DNA from: an uncultured Clostridia bacterium
GTDB taxonomy: Bacteria > Bacillota > Clostridia > Christensenellales > Borkfalkiaceae
DNA: 36,839 nt
Assembly (NCBI GenBank): GCA_947631925.1
Contig: CANRNE010000019.1
Coordinates: forward strand, 1 to 36,839
Reading direction: 5' to 3'
The notes under the pieces were generated by a model that had not been told where the DNA came from, made no database searches, and saw only the letters and a program-made list of their open reading frames with translations. Shown piece after piece: positions 5,174 to 35,828 of this stretch (position 1 is its first letter; every line of letters starts with the position of its first letter). Position numbers and translations under genes: made by a program.

Positions 5174-7605
5174 ACCCCTAAATATTTACATATTACTCTT
5201 ACTCGCATACCTCCGGACGTTGTATTTCCTGTCGCCATAACTTTAAGATATTGGACAGTAGGGTCTATCGTAATACCCGTCCCATTATATACGGATTTGT
5301 TACCGGCGGCGGAGACTGAATATACGGCTCGTGCGTTATAGACCGTCGCGCCGTATATGAACGCCCGTTCATCCGTCCAGTTTTGCACGATGACATTTGT
5401 CAATGCAGACGCATTGTAATTATAAACGGCCACGGCCAGAGCTACATATCCTCTCGGTACGTCGATCCGTTTATTGGCTGTTCCTTCGGCAATATCGGTA
5501 AAGAATATACCGCTGTCTATGACTATTTCGCCTTGATTCGGGACGCTTTGATACGACAGTTCGGCCGTGCCGCCCGTTGCAGTCGGAACATACGGAAGAT
5601 CGAGGCCCGCGCCCGACGTGTCGCGCCACTTGTCTGCCAACAAACCGGCAGCGATGTATTCGGCGACAAGTCCGGTGCGCATCTCACCCGACAGAGGCAG
5701 CATATACCGTTCGGGCTCGCCGCCGTTCCATAGATCGACGACCTCCGAGGCCGTGAGGGCATAGTTGAAAAGACGGCACCCTATAACTATGCCTTTGAAG
5801 GAAGACCCGATAGCCAGATATTGCAGATTCAGATCGTCCGAGAAGTTCGAGGCGGATGTTACACGCCCGCCGTTCAGATAGACGACGATCTCGTTTCCGT
5901 CGTAGGTTCCCGCGACGGAGTAATAGGTATCGGGTTCGATTCCCGTCACGACTCTCGGTGCGGCACCCCTGCAACGGAATACAAGGTTGCCGTTGACAAA
6001 TTCCAGAATCATCCCGTAAATATCGCCCGAAGTGGCAACGATCGTCTGTGTTCCCGATACGTCGTGGCCCGTTTTGAAATTAGCTGCTATCGTTCGGGCG
6101 CCGGAGAACAGCAACGCGGAGGCTGTGGAGCGAAAGTTCCCATCCGAGGTATTTACGCCCGTCTGACGCCCTTCGAGCGGAGCTATCTGCGACGATTTGA
6201 CGAAGCCCGTCGCGGGGTCGAGGTCGGCTTTGCCGGCAATCTTTCCGTCAATACCTTCTGCTGCGATATTTGCGGCATTCGCAGCATTAGTTGCTTCTGT
6301 TGCCGCCGTCGTTGCATTGCCCGCTGCGGCCGTCGCTTCTGCGGCGGCATTGTTCGCCGCCGTAGTTGCTGTCGTTGCTGCTTCCGTCGCTGCGTTCGCC
6401 GCTTTCGCGGCTGAGGCGGCATCCTCGGCGGCGGTTCCTACCGATTCGGCGGCGTGCGTAGCGTCCTCGGCTGCGGCATTCGCAGCCCCCGCTGCATCAT
6501 TTGCCGCCGTTGCGGCACCGGTTGCACTTGCGGCTGCGGCATTCGCTGCCGTCGCCGCATCATCGGCTTCTGTTGCTGCCGTCGTAGCATTGCCCGCTGC
6601 GGCCGTCGCTTCTGCGGCGGCTCTGTTCGCCGCCGTAGTTGCTGTCGTTGCTGCTTCCGTCGCTGCGTTCGCCGCTTTCGCGGCTGAGGCGGCATCCTCG
6701 GCGGCGGTTCCTACCGATTCGGCGGCGTGCGTAGCGTCCTCGGCTGCGGCATTCGCAGCCCCCGCTGCATCATTTGCCGCCGTTGCGGCACCGGTTGCAC
6801 TTGCGGCTGCGGCATTCGCTGCCGTCGCCGCATCATCGGCTTCTGTTGCTGCCGTCGTAGCATTGCCCGCTGCGGCCGTCGCTTCTGCGGCGGCTCTGTT
6901 CGCCGCCGTAGTTGCTGTCGTGGCTGCCCCCGTCGCGGTGTTCGCCATTGCCGCCGCCGCTACGGCACCTTCGGTCGCTGTCGTTGCAGACTCCGTCGCA
7001 TTTTTGGCCGCCTGTGCGGCCTTATTCGCTTCTATTGCAGCCTCCGTGGCCGGACGTTGCAACTCTTCGATCTGCTCCGGTGTAAGATCGTCATACGTCA
7101 CACCGAGTGCACGTTCTCCCGTATCTTCGTCGCCGATGAACCAATTACCGTTTTCGCCGATGTGGGGCGTGATACCGTCATCACCGCGTGTGGCCGCAAA
7201 GTCCATATAGACCCAGATACATGGTGTATGCAACGTAATGACGGGCTGCGCCGTGCGGCTCAGCACGGCGCCAGGTGTCGCCCCCTGGCGCAAGACTTCG
7301 ATCGAAGCATCGAAGCCCATGCGCACGAACGTATCATGCAACAGCCGCACACCGATCGTCGCCGTACCGGGTGTCAACGATCCCGTATCTTCGGCCGAGA
7401 GGGTACACAGAAGCATCCCGCGTGCCGCTTGCGAGATGTCGACCTCTCCTTTTGCGGACTGTTTTACGAGGTGCGTCCCCATTGCCGTCGTTGCGATGTC
7501 TATTTCCACATCATACCCCGACAGATCGAGAATCTGCCCCTCTTTGCGCGCCTCGAACCGCAGGACTACGGTCTCACCGGCGTAGATATAAGCTCTCTCT
7601 TTCAT
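5170..7605 (-). CDS. Tail fibre with Ala-rich repeats and LamG-like domain
   Basis: The predicted protein has 811 residues. Residues 1-170 resemble the N-terminal attachment domain of Gram-positive-like baseplate/fibre proteins (MKERAYIYAGETVVLRFEA). Residues about 180-440 are an Ala/Thr/Asn-rich low-complexity rod made of 91-residue repeats. Residues about 470-640 look like a LamG/concanavalin-like lectin domain (FSGARTIAANFKTG, then YYSVAGTYDGNEIVVYLNGG and IGCRLFNYALTASEV). The last 150 residues are a further beta-rich tip. This suggests the host-binding fibre. The ATG at 7605 is used; the longer frame would start at a TTG inside the upstream gene. Confidence 0.8.
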   Translation of the reverse strand: MKERAYIYAGETVVLRFEARKEGQILDLSGYDVEIDIATTAMGTHLVKQSAKGEVDISQAARGMLLCTLSAEDTGSLTPGTATIGVRLLHDTFVRMGFDASIEVLRQGATPGAVLSRTAQPVITLHTPCIWVYMDFAATRGDDGITPHIGENGNWFIGDEDTGERALGVTYDDLTPEQIEELQRPATEAAIEANKAAQAAKNATESATTATEGAVAAAAMANTATGAATTATTAANRAAAEATAAAGNATTAATEADDAATAANAAAASATGAATAANDAAGAANAAAEDATHAAESVGTAAEDAASAAKAANAATEAATTATTAANRAAAEATAAAGNATTAATEADDAATAANAAAASATGAATAANDAAGAANAAAEDATHAAESVGTAAEDAASAAKAANAATEAATTATTAANNAAAEATAAAGNATTAATEATNAANAANIAAEGIDGKIAGKADLDPATGFVKSSQIAPLEGRQTGVNTSDGNFRSTASALLFSGARTIAANFKTGHDVSGTQTIVATSGDIYGMILEFVNGNLVFRCRGAAPRVVTGIEPDTYYSVAGTYDGNEIVVYLNGGRVTSASNFSDDLNLQYLAIGSSFKGIVIGCRLFNYALTASEVVDLWNGGEPERYMLPLSGEMRTGLVAEYIAAGLLADKWRDTSGAGLDLPYVPTATGGTAELSYQSVPNQGEIVIDSGIFFTDIAEGTANKRIDVPRGYVALAVAVYNYNASALTNVIVQNWTDERAFIYGATVYNARAVYSVSAAGNKSVYNGTGITIDPTVQYLKVMATGNTTSGGMRVRVICKYLGV
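6301..6920 (-). repeat. Tandem 273-bp repeats inside the fibre gene
   Basis: Two near-identical 273-bp units (about 6301-6573 and 6574-6846) plus a partial third encode 91-residue Ala-rich blocks. The phase keeps the reading frame. Copy-number change by recombination would alter fibre length without a frameshift. Long open frames on the plus strand here are products of the biased codons and are not genes. Confidence 0.85.
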
Positions 7606-28409: not shown

Positions 28410-29183
28410 TTAGTACTCCACCGCTTCCCTGCGATCGATGAAGAAATGAATACCCGGTGCGCATTCGTTCCACCTGTTATCATCGAAATCCGGAACTTCG
28501 ACTGTGGCACCGACGGTGTAGACGAAGTTTTTGTCATGGTCGGAACGAACGGTATTCTCAGTTGCCTTGGTGCCGTCCATGTTCTGAATCTCCATGACGT
28601 ATGCTTTATCGCAACGGCATTTGTGTCCCGTTGCCGAACTGCGCCGTGCATCTTCCGGAATTCGTAATTTTACGATATGCCCAGAGGCTTTTTTCCAACC
28701 GATGAAACTACCCTCGGTCGGGCATGATAGATAACATCCTTTGGCATCGCACAGGTTGGAGCCGCGCAGGTTGGAGCCGCGCAGGTCAGCATTGCGCAGG
28801 TCGGCACTGCGCAGGTCGGCACTGCGCAGGTCGGCGCCGTACAGGTTGGCACCGCGCAGGTTGGCACCGCGCAGGTCAGCACCGCACAGGTCGGCACCGC
28901 GCAGGTTGGCATCGCTCAGGTCGGCACCGCGCAGGTTGGCACCGCACAGGTCGGCACTGCGCAGGTCGGCATCGTACAGGTCGGCACCGCGCAGGTTGGC
29001 ATCGCTCAGGTCGGCACCGCGCAGGTTGGCATCGCTCAGGTCGGCACTGCGCAGGTCGGCACCGCGCCTAATAGCTTCCAAAACCGTTTCGGTGATTGTG
29101 TTTCCCTCTTTCGTGTATTCAAATACGACCGAGCCCGTCCAACGGTTGCGGATTTCGATTTTAATCTGTTTCGTTGATTCCAT
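28410..29183 (-). CDS. Pentapeptide-repeat protein
   Basis: The protein has 257 residues. Residues about 35-150 are nearly pure A(D/N)L-x-x pentapeptides (e.g. [20 protein letters not shown]), predicted to form a right-handed quadrilateral beta-helix. A C-terminal domain of about 100 residues ([20 protein letters not shown], then [19 protein letters not shown]) follows, as seen in phage proteins with a DUF5758-like tail. Negatively charged repeat helices (Qnr, MfpA) can mimic DNA. Whether this one does is unknown. It lies in the accessory segment of the early operon. Confidence 0.8.
28755..29070 (-). repeat. 15-bp periodic repeats in the pentapeptide gene
   Basis: Units close to GGTCGGCACCGCGCA recur every 15 bp, each encoding one pentapeptide. 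They are not a CRISPR array: there are no unique spacers, and the period equals five codons. The plus-strand open frames here are shadows. Confidence 0.9.
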
Positions 29184-29933: not shown

Positions 29934-30452
29934 TTATGCCGTATCCTGCTCCTTCTTGGGTTCGACATAGAAGGTCTCATCCTGATCCACGTAGACGCCG
30001 CACTTGGTCAATTGTTCCGCCATACCCTCTTCGTCGCGGTCGGCCAGAATCAAGTCCTTCGCCAGTGCAAACTCCGTTCGCACATAAGCGGGCATGAATG
30101 TTTTCGCCAGTTCGAGTACGGATGCCCAAGTGAAGCCTTTGCGATTTTTCAGTTTGGGATTTCCCGTGCGGAATCCGATGATGCCGTGCGTCGTCTCCAT
30201 GCTGCGACGTTTGGAGAAGAGCTCCTCACGATGCTCCGTTGCGAAGACCTGCATCACCTCGAACGAATCGGTTTTGGTCTGCTGTAATTCGGCCAGCTCG
30301 TCGGCGTATTTCTCGCGGATCTTCGTGAAGTGGACATCCATGTCCGCTTGAATCTTCGCAATGCGTGCGTCGGCCACAGCGTACTCGCCGAACGCATCTT
30401 CCATCCGTTCACGGGTGACGCCCGCGATGATCTGTTTCTTTTGTCGTGCCAT
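29934..30452 (-). CDS. gam: Gam-like host nuclease inhibitor
   Basis: The protein has 172 residues. A long N-terminal coiled coil (EYAVADARIAKIQADMDVHF) is followed by a compact region with GIIGFRTGNPKLKNRKGFTW, which matches the conserved G-x-x-x-F-R-T-G-x-P-K-L segment of Mu Gam. In Mu, Gam binds linear DNA ends and protects them from RecBCD; it is related to Ku. It lies downstream of MuB and the ATPase in the early operon. Confidence 0.85.
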   Translation of the reverse strand: MARQKKQIIAGVTRERMEDAFGEYAVADARIAKIQADMDVHFTKIREKYADELAELQQTKTDSFEVMQVFATEHREELFSKRRSMETTHGIIGFRTGNPKLKNRKGFTWASVLELAKTFMPAYVRTEFALAKDLILADRDEEGMAEQLTKCGVYVDQDETFYVEPKKEQDTA

Positions 30453-30481: not shown

Positions 30482-31102
30482 TTATTCGAGTTCCATTTCC
30501 GCGACCTTCTCCGGCCAGATCTCGAAGGGCTTTCCGCCGCCGTAGCGGCTGCCGGCATTGGCGACGTAGTCCTTGACGAAAACCTTGACGCCGGCGTCGT
30601 ACTTGATCGACGACGCTGTCGTGCCTCGTGGATCGCGCCCGTCGGCGTGGCTGGTGAAGATCAGCGTTTTCTTGGGGTGCGCGTTTCGGAAGGAACGATA
30701 GTCGTCGTAGTTGATTCCCGAATACTGGATCGAATCGATCACCACGACATCGGGTGCCGTGCGTTCGGCCATCACGGCATCGAGATCCTCGAAGCGCATT
30801 TCGGTCGGCGCAATCATCAGACGCCGTGCATCTTCGGCATGGGCGTTTTTCAGTGCTCGCAGGAACGACAGACTCGGCCCTTCCTCCAACGGCATGTAAA
30901 GCGTGCGTGCGTCACCCATTGCAAATGCCTTGGCCATTTGTACGGCATAGGAGGTTTTGCCTTGCCGTGATTCTCCCCAGATGAGAATCGTCGCGCCGAC
31001 CTCGACCTCGCCCAGATGATCCGTCCACTGCCGGCTGAGGTTGAATGTACGGAACGTTCGAGAGGTAAGCTCCTTGACGCTTATGTATTTTCGCTTTCTC
31101 AT
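30482..31102 (-). CDS. RecA-like AAA ATPase
   Basis: The protein has 206 residues from ATG 31102, which overlaps the MuB stop by 4 nt; longer upstream frames are shadows. A Walker A motif GESRQGKTS occurs at about residues 43-51, and Walker B-like VVVIDSIQYSG at about 116-126. The ending KVFVKDYVANAGSRYGGGKP fits a RecA/DnaB-type ATPase core (phage AAA domain). It may act in replication or recombination together with MuB. Such a gene next to MuB is frequent in Bacteroidales Mu-like phages. Confidence 0.8.
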   Translation of the reverse strand: MRKRKYISVKELTSRTFRTFNLSRQWTDHLGEVEVGATILIWGESRQGKTSYAVQMAKAFAMGDARTLYMPLEEGPSLSFLRALKNAHAEDARRLMIAPTEMRFEDLDAVMAERTAPDVVVIDSIQYSGINYDDYRSFRNAHPKKTLIFTSHADGRDPRGTTASSIKYDAGVKVFVKDYVANAGSRYGGGKPFEIWPEKVAEMELE

Positions 31103-31962
31103 TGCGCAAATTGCAGTTCGTTGTAGATCATACGGGGGTTCGCCTTGCAGCGACGGATGAGCTGTGCGGCGTTGACCGAAGTGTCGGCGTTGAGCTTGAC
31201 GATCGCCGCGCAGTCTTTCGAAAGGTACTGCATCGCCGAGGCGTCGTCCTCCGGCGTAGCGTGGTTGTACTGTCCGCCGAAGCGGCTGAACAGCTCCACG
31301 AAGCCTACGACCTCGTTGCTGATGGCCGTGTCGATGCGTTTCTTCAACCCGTCGGCACCCATGGCGTACCACGCGCAGCGGTACTGCGTGGCGTTCCACA
31401 ACGCCTTCACTTCCAGAATCGATTCGCGTTTGAGATCGCCCATCTCGTCGAGGATCACCAGCGGCCGTTCGAAGGCCGTGTTGAGCGCGTAGACCACGGC
31501 GTCGTAGAGCATGTCGTAGGTCTTGGCCGTATCGATGCCCAGCTGCCGGGCGATCGTGCGCAGAAGCTTGCGCCGTGTCTTGGCCTGCGAACAGTCGACA
31601 TAAACTACGTTGCGGTGCGAACGTTTGTAGATCGTCGCGGCGAAAGTCTTGCCCACGCCCGCGCGGTCGACCAGAATCGCGCACATGCTGCTGCGCTGGC
31701 ACTCTTCGAGCTGCTGCGTGACGTACTCGTAGACCTGCGTGCGGGCCGCGCGCCATGTGTTGTCGCGCTCCACGCCCAGCACATGCGCCAGATGTTCCCA
31801 TTTCTGGGCGCTCACGACGCCCTCCGTGTCGCCCTTCATCAGACGCGACAACTGTGCGGGATTGATGTCCAACGATACGGCGAACTGCGCGGCGCTGCCG
31901 CCGAAGTTCTGCCGCTGCTCGCGTAAGGCCGCAAGCACACGGTCTCTAAGATGCTGTTCCAT
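31099..31962 (-). CDS. MuB-like transposition ATPase
   Basis: The protein has 287 residues from ATG 31962, which overlaps the transposase stop by 17 nt. The N-terminal part has a lambda-repressor-type HTH (GSAAQFAVSLDINPAQLSRL MKG region). Walker A DRAGVGKTF occurs near residue 97 and Walker B VILDEMGDL near 163. MuB binds target DNA and activates MuA in transposition and target immunity. The combination of N-terminal HTH and AAA core and the adjacency to MuA make this assignment strong. Confidence 0.88.
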   Translation of the reverse strand: MEQHLRDRVLAALREQRQNFGGSAAQFAVSLDINPAQLSRLMKGDTEGVVSAQKWEHLAHVLGVERDNTWRAARTQVYEYVTQQLEECQRSSMCAILVDRAGVGKTFAATIYKRSHRNVVYVDCSQAKTRRKLLRTIARQLGIDTAKTYDMLYDAVVYALNTAFERPLVILDEMGDLKRESILEVKALWNATQYRCAWYAMGADGLKKRIDTAISNEVVGFVELFSRFGGQYNHATPEDDASAMQYLSKDCAAIVKLNADTSVNAAQLIRRCKANPRMIYNELQFAQ

Positions 31963-34014
31963 ATTTCTGTTGGGTTTTGGATAGATTCTTCTTGGCTTGA
32001 CGGCGTACAGCGTCGAAATCGATCTCCGTGTCGACGTCGAACGGTGCCAGGTCGTCCGCCGTGGTCGGGATGGCCACCTCCTCGACATCCTGCACCTCGT
32101 CGACGGCTCGAAGGTCGTCGTGTTTGAGGATGCCCACATGCGGCACATCCGCCAGATCGTTCTTGACCTGCGACTTGAACGCCTCGATGTAGCGGAACTG
32201 CTGCTCGCGGATTTCCAGATCGCGATCCGTCTGTTCGACCGTCGCCGTCTGATATGCCTCCAACGGCTCGCAACGGCACAGGAAGCGGCTGCCCTGGTAC
32301 AGGAATACTTCGTTGACCGTGCCGTCCTCTTCGGGCAGGCAGTAGGCGTCCACTTTATAATTGCCGGGTTCCAACCGTCCGAGTACCTCGGGCGACGGTA
32401 GCACGAACTCCCGGCAGGCGGCCATGACGAACTGGTTGGCGCGCACGCTCGTGCGGATCTTGTCGCCGATGCAGTAGGTCACAAGGGCGCGGTTCACGTT
32501 TTCGAGGTTCGGGTTGAACTGTTCGAGCAGCACCTGCCAGCGCGTCATGCCCCGATACTTTTTCTGATTGGGGTGCGGCGCCATGTTGTATTCGAGGATG
32601 TCCATACGATCCTCCTGTACGAGCTGCGAATAATCGTAGAGCTTCTCCACGTATTGATTGTCGACCTTCGCTGAACGCTGCGTGTACCATTCGCCGCGTG
32701 CCCACCAGCGCCCCACATTGGGGTGGTTGCGGTGTTCGACGGTCATCTTCTTCGAGCGGTTCATCGGCTCGGCGTACTTCTCGCGGGCGTTGCCCGGCCG
32801 GCACCAACGGACGAAGGGGAACATCGTCGACATCTCGTCGCGGAAATCCGACGCGAGGTGATGTTCCAACTCGATCTCCGCAGGCATGGGGAGACCTTTC
32901 CTGACAAGGGTGCGGAACATGTCGCGGAAACATTCGAGAAACAGCGCCTTGTCTTTCTTTCTGGAATAGGCCACACCCACGACGGCCGTCGAGGCGATGT
33001 CGTAGATGTAATAGGCCAAGGGGGCAACGCCGCTGCGATCCTTGCGCGGCAGGTCACGGTCGTCGGCCGACAGGCGCGACAGCGAGAACTGCGGCCGCTT
33101 GCGGTGAACGTAGGGCATGTGATGGTCGGAGTACCAGAGCGAGTCGTTGCGGCGCTTGTCGACGGCAGCGCGGGCGCGGGCCTGGTTGAGATAGTTGTGG
33201 ACGGTGGCTGCCGACAGTTCCATCGGCGCACCCTGACGGATGAAGGCGTCGCGGTCGAACAGCTCCCCGCTCTGCTTGTCGTAGACGGCGATGGCGCCGC
33301 ACATGAACATCTTGTAGTAGTCGTGCGTTTCCAGCCCGAAGGGTTTGTTCGGCATCGTGTAGAGCGCCCACAGCAGCCGCTCGATCTGCTGCGTCACCTT
33401 GCGCGAGTTGTTGTTGCCGAAGCCGAGATGCACGAGCGAGGCGTAGCCGTCGGCGATGAACTTCTCGTACTTGGCACGCAGCTTCGCCGGGAACGTCGGA
33501 AGCGTATGCTCCCACGCCTTGCGGAACTCGCCGTCGTCGATCGACGAGCTGATGGCCGACCACAACTCCTTCTTCGTGGTCTTCCGGCCTGAGAAACTCC
33601 GTGCGGCCAGCTTCGACGAGATGTACTCCCGCACGCCGTCCAACACCGAAGCGTTGAGCGTGTACTTCTGTACGTCGGAGGCCGTCAGCGTGTCGCCGGA
33701 AGGCAGAACCATCTCGGAGTAGAACGAACGCGCCTTATCGTCGTAGTGGATGAAATCGATGACTTTCGTCTTGATCGGCTGCTTCGTCGGGTCGCCGTGC
33801 AGCTCCTCCCAGGCGCGGCGGATGCGCAGCGGAAGACTCGCGTATTCATACAGTGCGGAGCAGCCCTTCGATGCTCGGCGCAACCGATTGACTTGACCGC
33901 GAGCAACGAGCTTCTTTAAATTGCTGACACTGAGAAATTCCCCCCCCCCGAATTTTCAGAGGGTGCTGTCAGCTCCGTACCGCTGATGCACAGTATGCCT
34001 TTATAGATTTCCAT
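31946..34014 (-). CDS. MuA-like DDE transposase, frame broken at a G10 tract
   Basis: The start at ATG 34014 reads MEIYKGILCISGTELTAPSE, reaches the 10-G tract, and stops 8 codons later. The downstream frame is open from the tract (EFLSVSNLKKLVARGQVNRL), has no ATG nearby (its first start-like codon is a TTG) and runs to 31946. Joined, it would give about 690 residues, similar to MuA (663). It carries an RNase H-like region with SADDRDL, ELEHHLASDF and AREKYAEP acidic residues as candidate DDE ligands, an N-terminal DNA-binding part and a C-terminal basic tail. With 11 or 8 G it would be in frame. Confidence 0.8.
33940..33949 (-). repeat. Ten-G homopolymer in the transposase gene
   Basis: On the coding strand ten consecutive G follow AAAATTC and precede AATTTCTC. 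Codons run TCG GGG GGG GGG AAT, so this length is out of frame with the rest of the gene by one base. Poly-G tracts of this length commonly vary by slipped-strand mispairing and are also a common site of sequencing error. Confidence 0.95.
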
Positions 34015-34026
34015 GATATGTCGTGT

Positions 34027-34089
34027 CCTGTGCGGGGAGTCGAACCCCGATCTCGCCTCGGCGGCGGCTCTGCCGTTGAGCCGCACAGG
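34027..34089 (-). ncRNA. tRNA-like element C, upstream of transposase
   Basis: On the minus strand a 7-bp end stem CCTGTGC/GCACAGG, a D-arm-like GGCTC-AACGGCA-GAGCC and a T-arm GGGG-TTCGACT-CCCC occur in tRNA order, including the GG of the D-loop and the TTCGA of the T-loop. The middle, CGCCGCCGAGGCG, is too short for a normal 5-bp/7-nt anticodon arm, and its loop lacks U33. It ends 13 nt before the transposase ATG. It may be a tRNA relic or a regulatory mimic in the leader. Confidence 0.6.
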
Positions 34090-34115
34090 TACGGGCCGTG
34101 CCCGCAAAAAATCGC

Positions 34116-34123
34116 TATCTTTG
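34116..34123 (+). promoter_or_regulatory. -7 box for the second cargo pair
   Basis: TATCTTTG at 34116-34123 matches the Bacteroidales -7 element and lies 26 nt before the ATG at 34150. No clear TTTG -33 element is seen, since the expected position lies in the GC-rich GGGCCGTGCCC. Confidence 0.65.
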
Positions 34124-34149
34124 TCCGTCAACTACAAAAATCTGCGATT

Positions 34150-35313: not shown

Positions 35314-35544
35314 TCAATTTTCCTGCCATCTGTCGACTTTTTCGAAGGTTGCGTCCGGACAAAACGTTTCGATGTCCATTCTCACGATCTCCATCCAGTC
35401 GTCGGCCGTAGAGACCTCCGCGTGAAGATCATCCAGAATTCGGACGTGCGCCACGCTCGGATGGTAGCGGATGTCGATCATGTCGGCAATGTCATACGCC
35501 CTGCGGTCGGATGCGGCCGGAAGCGTCAGTTTCTCGATTTTCAT
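35314..35544 (-). CDS. Small acidic early protein, 76 aa
   Basis: The protein has 76 residues (MKIEKLTLPAASDRRAYDIA, then DIRYHPSVAHVRILDDLHAE) and is acidic and soluble. It is transcribed with the early operon and begins about 45 nt after tRNA-like element B. The function is unknown. Its phase and codon use are like those of its neighbours. Confidence 0.65.
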   Translation of the reverse strand: MKIEKLTLPAASDRRAYDIADMIDIRYHPSVAHVRILDDLHAEVSTADDWMEIVRMDIETFCPDATFEKVDRWQEN

Positions 35545-35588: not shown

Positions 35589-35648
35589 GCCGGTGGAGGA
35601 TTCGAACCCCCGACGGAAAACTCTTTAAAAAACCGTCGCCCTGCCGGC
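35589..35648 (-). ncRNA. tRNA-like element B
   Basis: On the minus strand GCCGG/CCGGC closes a T-arm of GGGGG-TTCGAAT-CCTCC (35595-35611) and a hairpin CGACGG/CCGTCG with a long U/A-rich loop (35611-35638). The T-loop TTCGAAT is a perfect tRNA consensus, but there is no D-arm and the central loop is far too long. It is a tRNA fragment or mimic, not a translatable tRNA. The plus-strand frame over it has the GGFEPP phrase that typically betrays antisense tRNA sequence. Confidence 0.6.
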
Positions 35649-35730: not shown

Positions 35731-35828
35731 GGCGGGCGGGGGATTCGAACCCCCGTAACAACAAACCTAAACTCCGAAAAGAACTAAACCGATGAGAAAT
35801 GATGCGTGCGCCCACGCTGCTGCCCGCC
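35731..35828 (-). ncRNA. tRNA-like element A
   Basis: A perfect 7-bp acceptor-like stem GGCGGGC/GCCCGCC and a perfect T-arm GGGGG-TTCGAAT-CCCCC (35738-35754) sit on the minus strand. A GCGTG/CACGC hairpin is in the D-arm position. The roughly 45 nt between are AT-rich and do not form a normal anticodon arm, although a CTCAT at 35791 could be read as an anticodon-loop remnant. Total length is 98 nt. Together with B it fills the 306-bp gap 35545-35849, otherwise empty. Confidence 0.6.

Follow-up and report, generated by a model that had tools for sequence, protein, structure and literature searches.

Poly-G contingency loci are known in Campylobacter and Neisseria, and long homopolymers are classical slippage sites. 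RNAs shaped like tRNA are found outside the tRNA genes as well: tRNA mimics occur in bacterial mRNA leaders, and the mammalian mascRNA is a tRNA-like RNA with reduced arms. PMC11143913 lists phage M3 RNA, the C4 antisense RNA of P1/P7 and mRNAs as non-tRNA substrates of RNase P, and describes the 12-bp stem formed by the T and acceptor arms as the measuring device (ruler) of that enzyme. The stretch of DNA analyzed here (the window, 36,839 nucleotides) holds a phage transposase gene that invites comparison with both kinds of system, as it is split at a run of ten G and directly preceded by a tRNA-like sequence. Our main reading, to which we give a probability of roughly 0.5, is that the run is a private error or mutation rather than a shared switch, and that the tRNA-like leader is a conserved feature and a putative substrate of a tRNA-maturation enzyme.

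The split transposase gene and its phage

An earlier, sequence-only reading of this DNA had seen a Mu-like tailed phage, and profile searches bear it out. On the minus strand, the transposase is accompanied by a MuB-type transposition protein (31099..31962; phrog_296, E 1.3e-37) and a Mu Gam-like end-protection protein (29934..30452; PF07352, E 2.9e-31; phrog_491, E 3e-32), and PHROG profiles also identify terminase, portal, head, tail sheath, tape-measure and baseplate proteins among the 20 window proteins scanned, five of which had no match. The window also contains an array of a 15-nt repeat (28711-29127), given by the repeat scan as 18 overlapping copies in register, and three 273-nt repeats (6253-7071) within a frame that has a tail-fibre match.

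The transposase gene itself is read from the minus strand. From the ATG at 34014, 21 codons plus two bases lead into the G10 run (33949..33940), and an in-frame stop follows at 33916, seven codons beyond the tract, giving a short start-bearing frame of 32 codons (33916..34014). The long frame (31946..33955; phrog_310, E 1.6e-33) overlaps the short one at the run, stays open for 669 codons to its end at 31946, and has TTG at 33883 as its earliest start-type codon. The ten-G junction between a start-bearing frame and a long catalytic frame is thus just where it had been claimed to be, and the accompanying arithmetic, in which 8 or 11 G would give one protein of about 690 residues and 10 G a stop within 8 codons, is correct. 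The short frame opens with the 15 residues MEIYKGILCISGTEL, which resemble the N-terminus of unbroken relatives; counted by eye, 11 of 15 are identical with each of the two closest, L112 from a Rikenellaceae MAG and the viral contig L032 (52% and 54% identical, respectively, to the window transposase in alignment A2), and we therefore take both frames as parts of one gene.

The MuA assignment follows from profile phrog_310 together with the transposition neighbourhood of MuB and Gam. Pfam finds no match for the window transposase and is likewise silent for those of L112 and L032, and a search for solved-structure relatives of alignment A2 returned none at E up to 1. Judged by its sequence, the protein appears to be a divergent MuA-type transposase. 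With regard to a canonical DDE triad, eight residues are invariant in 17 sequences (D320, D321, D323, E384, E386, H388, E414 and E418 in L112 numbering); in L112 itself (L112:3929-5971) they form the pattern D320/D321/D323, E384-x-E386-x-H388, E414/E418 within residues 320-418. Hankyphage p00, Porphyromonas gingivalis phages and Winogradskyella phage Peternella, all phages of Bacteroidota, likewise have a PHROG transposase followed by MuB. The long frame aligns with their MuA proteins roughly from residues 2-21 to 193-251, whereas the rest of the window transposase diverges from them.

The G10 tract among related loci

Relatives of the transposase were drawn from phages, plasmids, viral contigs, genome contigs and whole genomes (in one case as the best 80 of 145 matches), with 12 of 37 phage records and 4 of 5 plasmid records taken into the locus set. 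The sequence-only reading, which proposed phase variation of the transposase, had named homologues with no tract and a fixed frame as what would refute it. Such homologues are found at 52-54% identity, since L112 and L032 carry the N-terminal piece and the remainder in a single frame, joined by a short linker that has no G tract. More widely, G runs within the first 180 nt reach a maximum of only 2 to 5 in each of the 173 related loci with a called start (141 of them distinct over those 180 nt), and the window alone has 10. A single frame of at least 600 aa is present in 171 of the 173, a count biased by the calling of starts within one open frame. Early stops occur in the transposase genes of L187 (L187:3949) and L208 (L208:730). 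Among 163 loci, 12 have no called start: five start at a contig end, four are continuous by eye, L107 is ambiguous as to continuity, L069 loses its frame within the N-terminal part (L069:2454), at a place without a long homopolymer, and in L183 the break falls mid-gene (L183:3338). A second copy of the same phage was not found in the viral or genome contigs, a collection in which the records nearest to its own genome may be absent. Going by these sequences, the transposase is a single-frame gene in nearly all relatives seen, and G10 is private to the window. What stands of the phase-variation proposal is the site of the break, a potentially mutable G tract within a single transposase gene, and the open MuB and Gam frames nearby; a conserved poly-G contingency switch is rejected, the tract being absent from all 173 related loci and the gene continuous in nearly all.

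The window takes up an entire contig, and the 1.9 Mb genome to which this contig is assigned has three matches to the Spo0A C-terminal domain and none to SusD, as in spore-forming Firmicutes and unlike Bacteroides. The phage relatives of the window are Bacteroidota phages, and because of this disagreement the contig is probably misbinned. Among 398 genomes of the family to which it is assigned, the window matches two, its own and one distant. A guess from L112 would make the host one of the Rikenellaceae or a near group. The other poly-G tracts of the MAG (six runs of at least 9, G10 included) were considered as support for a switch and set aside, since that genome is probably another organism. 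One of the runs in the bin's genome, a G9 lying between TTGAC and TATAAT (L026:2699-2707), resembles by eye a phase-variable promoter; a G15 (L025:710-724) and a G12 (L024:2675-2686) lie within frames that are open across both runs. Runs of G9 (108-116) and G8 (163-170) are also found near the left end of the P. gingivalis phage L006, within an annotated hypothetical gene.

The tract is only mildly beyond chance: a G or C run of at least 10 arose in 2 of 200 windows simulated under a third-order Markov model trained without the tract, which makes G10 by chance unusual, yet possible. The same picture is expected from an error in length, a mutation by slippage or a switch. The explanation we lean towards, at somewhat under even odds, is that the assembly has the length wrong or gives the consensus of a population with mixed lengths. 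Against an error, base quality elsewhere looks good, the frames for MuB, Gam, terminase, portal, head and sheath all being open. A fixed slip that inactivated the gene seems quite unlikely. We consider it unlikely, too, that G10 is a true contingency tract, in which slipped-strand replication would toggle the transposase and leave mixed lengths in lysogens and virions, with phase-variable transposition as the outcome. The tract is the sole G or C run of at least 7 in the 36.8 kb and coincides with the frame junction, early in a key gene, at a position where the linker varies in length among relatives (L003 has 32 residues there beyond those of L004); against this, none of the 173 related loci has a tract there, only one length is seen, and the frame as assembled would deprive the phage of a full transposase. 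A limited search of the open-access literature found no description of a phase-variable MuA. The overlap of the short and long frames at the run would also suit a real G10 read through by transcriptional (RNA polymerase) slippage or by -1 ribosomal slippage to yield the full protein, but the relatives are unbroken and lack such a run, so that no slippage signal is conserved, and we regard this as rather unlikely. The tract is of interest mainly as a warning: before lengths have been counted, a transposase that is broken in a single assembly gives no evidence of a switch.

A tRNA-like leader without a normal anticodon arm

Immediately upstream of the split gene lies the first of three tRNA-like sequences in the window, two of them weaker candidates, all on the minus strand. 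Element 1 (34023..34089, including a 4-nt tail ACAC) has the acceptor stem CCTGTGC/GCACAGG, a D arm, a short 3-bp hairpin and a T arm with loop TTCGACT, and its acceptor ends at 34027, 12 nt ahead of the MuA ATG. Its predicted fold is a cloverleaf whose third hairpin is short (z -2.5, with 2 of 200 shuffles as good). Candidate element 2 (35589..35648; GCCGG..GGGGG-TTCGAAT-CCTCC-A-CCGGC) is a weak match to our covariance model at 23.0 bits and stands 44 nt before an ATG at 35544, while candidate element 3 (35731..35828; GGCGGGC..GGGGG-TTCGAAT-CCCCC-GCCCGCC, tail GCAA) scores 22.4 bits. Folding of these two is not clearly beyond that of shuffles (133 of 200 and 30 of 200, respectively, fold as well). 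In the window, ARAGORN reports no tRNA and RF00005 does not reach its gathering threshold; the best Rfam match of element 1 is mascRNA (RF01684) at 16.6 bits and E 1, far under the gathering score of 42.5.

A motif, TTTGTWGTTGAMNNNACARATGNAGCGA, is common to L112:3812 and L032:3236, upstream of the element in each; L191 resembles it by eye only. By eye and with a one-base gap, the window stretch 34111..34138 (minus strand) is similar, and a promoter or operator role for it would be a guess. An ungapped scan allowing at most 7 mismatches missed this stretch and gave one window site, 34279, at 7 mismatches, offering no support for the motif as a repeated phage-end motif.

The anatomy of the leader was worked out on 17 cloverleaf-type elements, chosen by hand and with acceptor ends trimmed partly by pairing, a procedure biased towards the acceptor and T arms; the element scans made no use of the D arm. 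RNAalifold, given no structure, finds an acceptor of 7 bp, a D arm of 4 bp and a T arm of 5 bp with no anticodon arm, and compensatory changes in 11 of the 16 pairs. In these 17, pairing holds in 98.9% of cells, as opposed to 68.8% in shuffles (0 of 500 as high) and 37-54% when the partners are slid; covariation is 0.800 against 0.222 shuffled (again 0 of 500 as high), and further pair types number 31 against 24.6 (2 of 500). Pairs changed on both sides, at 11 against 9.5, are not beyond chance, as 81 of 500 shuffles reach that number. The D loop carries GG in all 17, and acceptor, D and T arms occur with the elbow residues of tRNA. A standard anticodon arm (5-bp stem, 7-nt loop) can be drawn in only 2 of the 17 when at least 4 of its 5 pairs are required. 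The region from D arm to T arm measures 17 to 38 nt. Shorter elements, such as those of L071 and L198, lack the D arm by eye. The combined T and acceptor helix is 11-13 bp long in 45 of 47 elements, the lower edge being due in part to a score cut-off of 29. The tail has C at position 2 and A at position 4 in 28 of 50 elements and is exactly NCCA in 5 of 50, counted in a fixed register in which some tails are displaced by one base, and the 50 probably include a few hits that arose by chance.

A strand bias is seen across related phages. Within 4 kb upstream of MuA and on its strand, 45 of 118 nonredundant loci hold 55 elements (a few low-scoring ones likely by chance), compared with 1 when those stretches are scanned on the opposite strand; at a score of at least 31 the figures are 38 and 0. 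The other 73 loci have no element within 4 kb upstream; in 65 of them the upstream sequence extends to 900 nt or more, and in the remaining 8 it is shorter. Over all loci at that score there are 55 distinct hits against none in one dinucleotide shuffle per locus, with related elements counted repeatedly, and plus-strand hits number 66 for the loop triplet CGA but 1-8 for five permuted triplets. Our covariance model gives 39 matches from 100 sources and 15 from 34, every one on the MuA strand (12 of the 39 and 4 of the 15 being training sequences or near copies); for the unoriented loci L192, L195, L198, L200 and L203, the MuA strand was worked out separately where matched. One of these also has a DUF2693-FD RNA match from Rfam at 48.6 bits, above the gathering score (L192:2549-2599, minus strand).

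Placement ties the elements to genes. A tRNA-like sequence lies directly 5' of the MuA ATG in the window, L112, L032, L038 and three P. gingivalis phages; in hankyphage (L208, L210) the element precedes an ArsR-annotated gene, two genes upstream of MuA. A scan of 140-nt upstream regions in the 118 nonredundant loci gives 19 at p of at most 0.05, with about 6 expected, and in 14 regions none of 100 shuffles was as good, 11 of those 14 having a CGA T-loop. Start codons (ATG, GTG or TTG opening a frame of at least 40 aa), which are common anyway, follow within 60 nt after 47 of the 55 elements; that of the window is outside the 47 because its MuA frame stops after 32 codons. Counting ATG alone for such frames, 39 of 50 elements have one within 70 nt, and 34 of these 39 at 15-34 nt. 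When loci are grouped by the gene downstream, all 23 members of five groups do better than at least 59 of 60 shuffles, and 3 of 14 members of a sixth group (KRYIHI) do better than all 60; the gene motifs were chosen after seeing the elements, which favours them, and the members, taken by gene alone, include many close relatives. A further tRNA-like element occurs downstream of a transposase (L069:4530-4599), 28 nt before a 291-aa gene that is MuB-like by resemblance only.

The covariation, strand bias and placement show the leader to be a tRNA-like RNA without a normal anticodon arm. Of the two features studied here, it is this leader, directly before the MuA start, that is conserved. A limited search of the open-access literature found no account of such leaders in phages of this kind.

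Possible action of the leader and known systems

A putative role for the leader, and a likely one, is recognition by RNase P or another tRNA-maturation enzyme. With an acceptor and T-arm helix of about 12 bp and an RCNA-like tail, the leader would be a fitting target for RNase P or RNase Z; the enzyme would trim the early mRNAs of these transposable phages, or divide them from one another, in the manner of tRNA punctuation in mitochondria; alternatively, recognition of the leader would shield or gate the 5' ends of those mRNAs. A fuller proposal for Bacteroidota transposable phages, in which host enzymes would cut or bind an anticodon-less, tRNA-shaped RNA heading the early genes and so tie transposition to tRNA processing, with the private poly-G of this phage as a second, genetic switch, is tentative and on balance doubtful.

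The main rival has the leaders acting as tRNA mimics that bind a host or phage protein, so that early genes would be autoregulated or tRNA-responsive with no cleavage involved, and this we hold possible, if less than probable. GG in the D loop and CGA in the T loop point to a retained L-shaped elbow, and tRNA mimics have precedent in bacterial leaders; against it, there is no known partner, and the span between D and T arms is variable. That the leaders are plain phage-borne tRNA genes or decayed copies of them is very unlikely. RF00005 does exceed its gathering score in 9 of the 20 loci given to it, and also in L006, and ARAGORN calls a tRNA in 15 of 50 loci (loci chosen for holding elements), but 9 of these 15 calls have an anticodon of 2 or 4 nt, the standard arm is rare among the cloverleaf-type elements, the stems are maintained by compensatory change, and most elements have an ATG within 70 nt. 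An ordinary tRNA gene is rejected for the window, where ARAGORN is silent, given the abnormal anticodons in most calls elsewhere. If leaders are processed or bound as tRNAs, they would constitute an RNA element, widespread among gut phages, by which early expression is controlled. RNA-seq is reported for hankyphage in PMC12135933.

Compared with known systems, the tract is like the contingency loci of Campylobacter and Neisseria in being a long G run at an early reading-frame junction, and unlike them in that one length is seen, the tract is absent from 173 related loci, and the gene is a phage transposase. The leader resembles mascRNA in its reduced arms, with no homology claimed. Mitochondrial tRNA punctuation and the leader both place tRNA-shaped units before genes; those of mitochondria are real tRNAs, whereas cleavage at the leader is putative. 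The leader helix of 11-13 bp comes near the 12-bp ruler that PMC11143913 gives for RNase P. Like the M3 and C4 RNAs, the leader is a tRNA-like or otherwise folded phage RNA; but those are single RNAs, while the leader, a putative substrate, recurs upstream of transposase genes across a phage group and has no normal anticodon arm.
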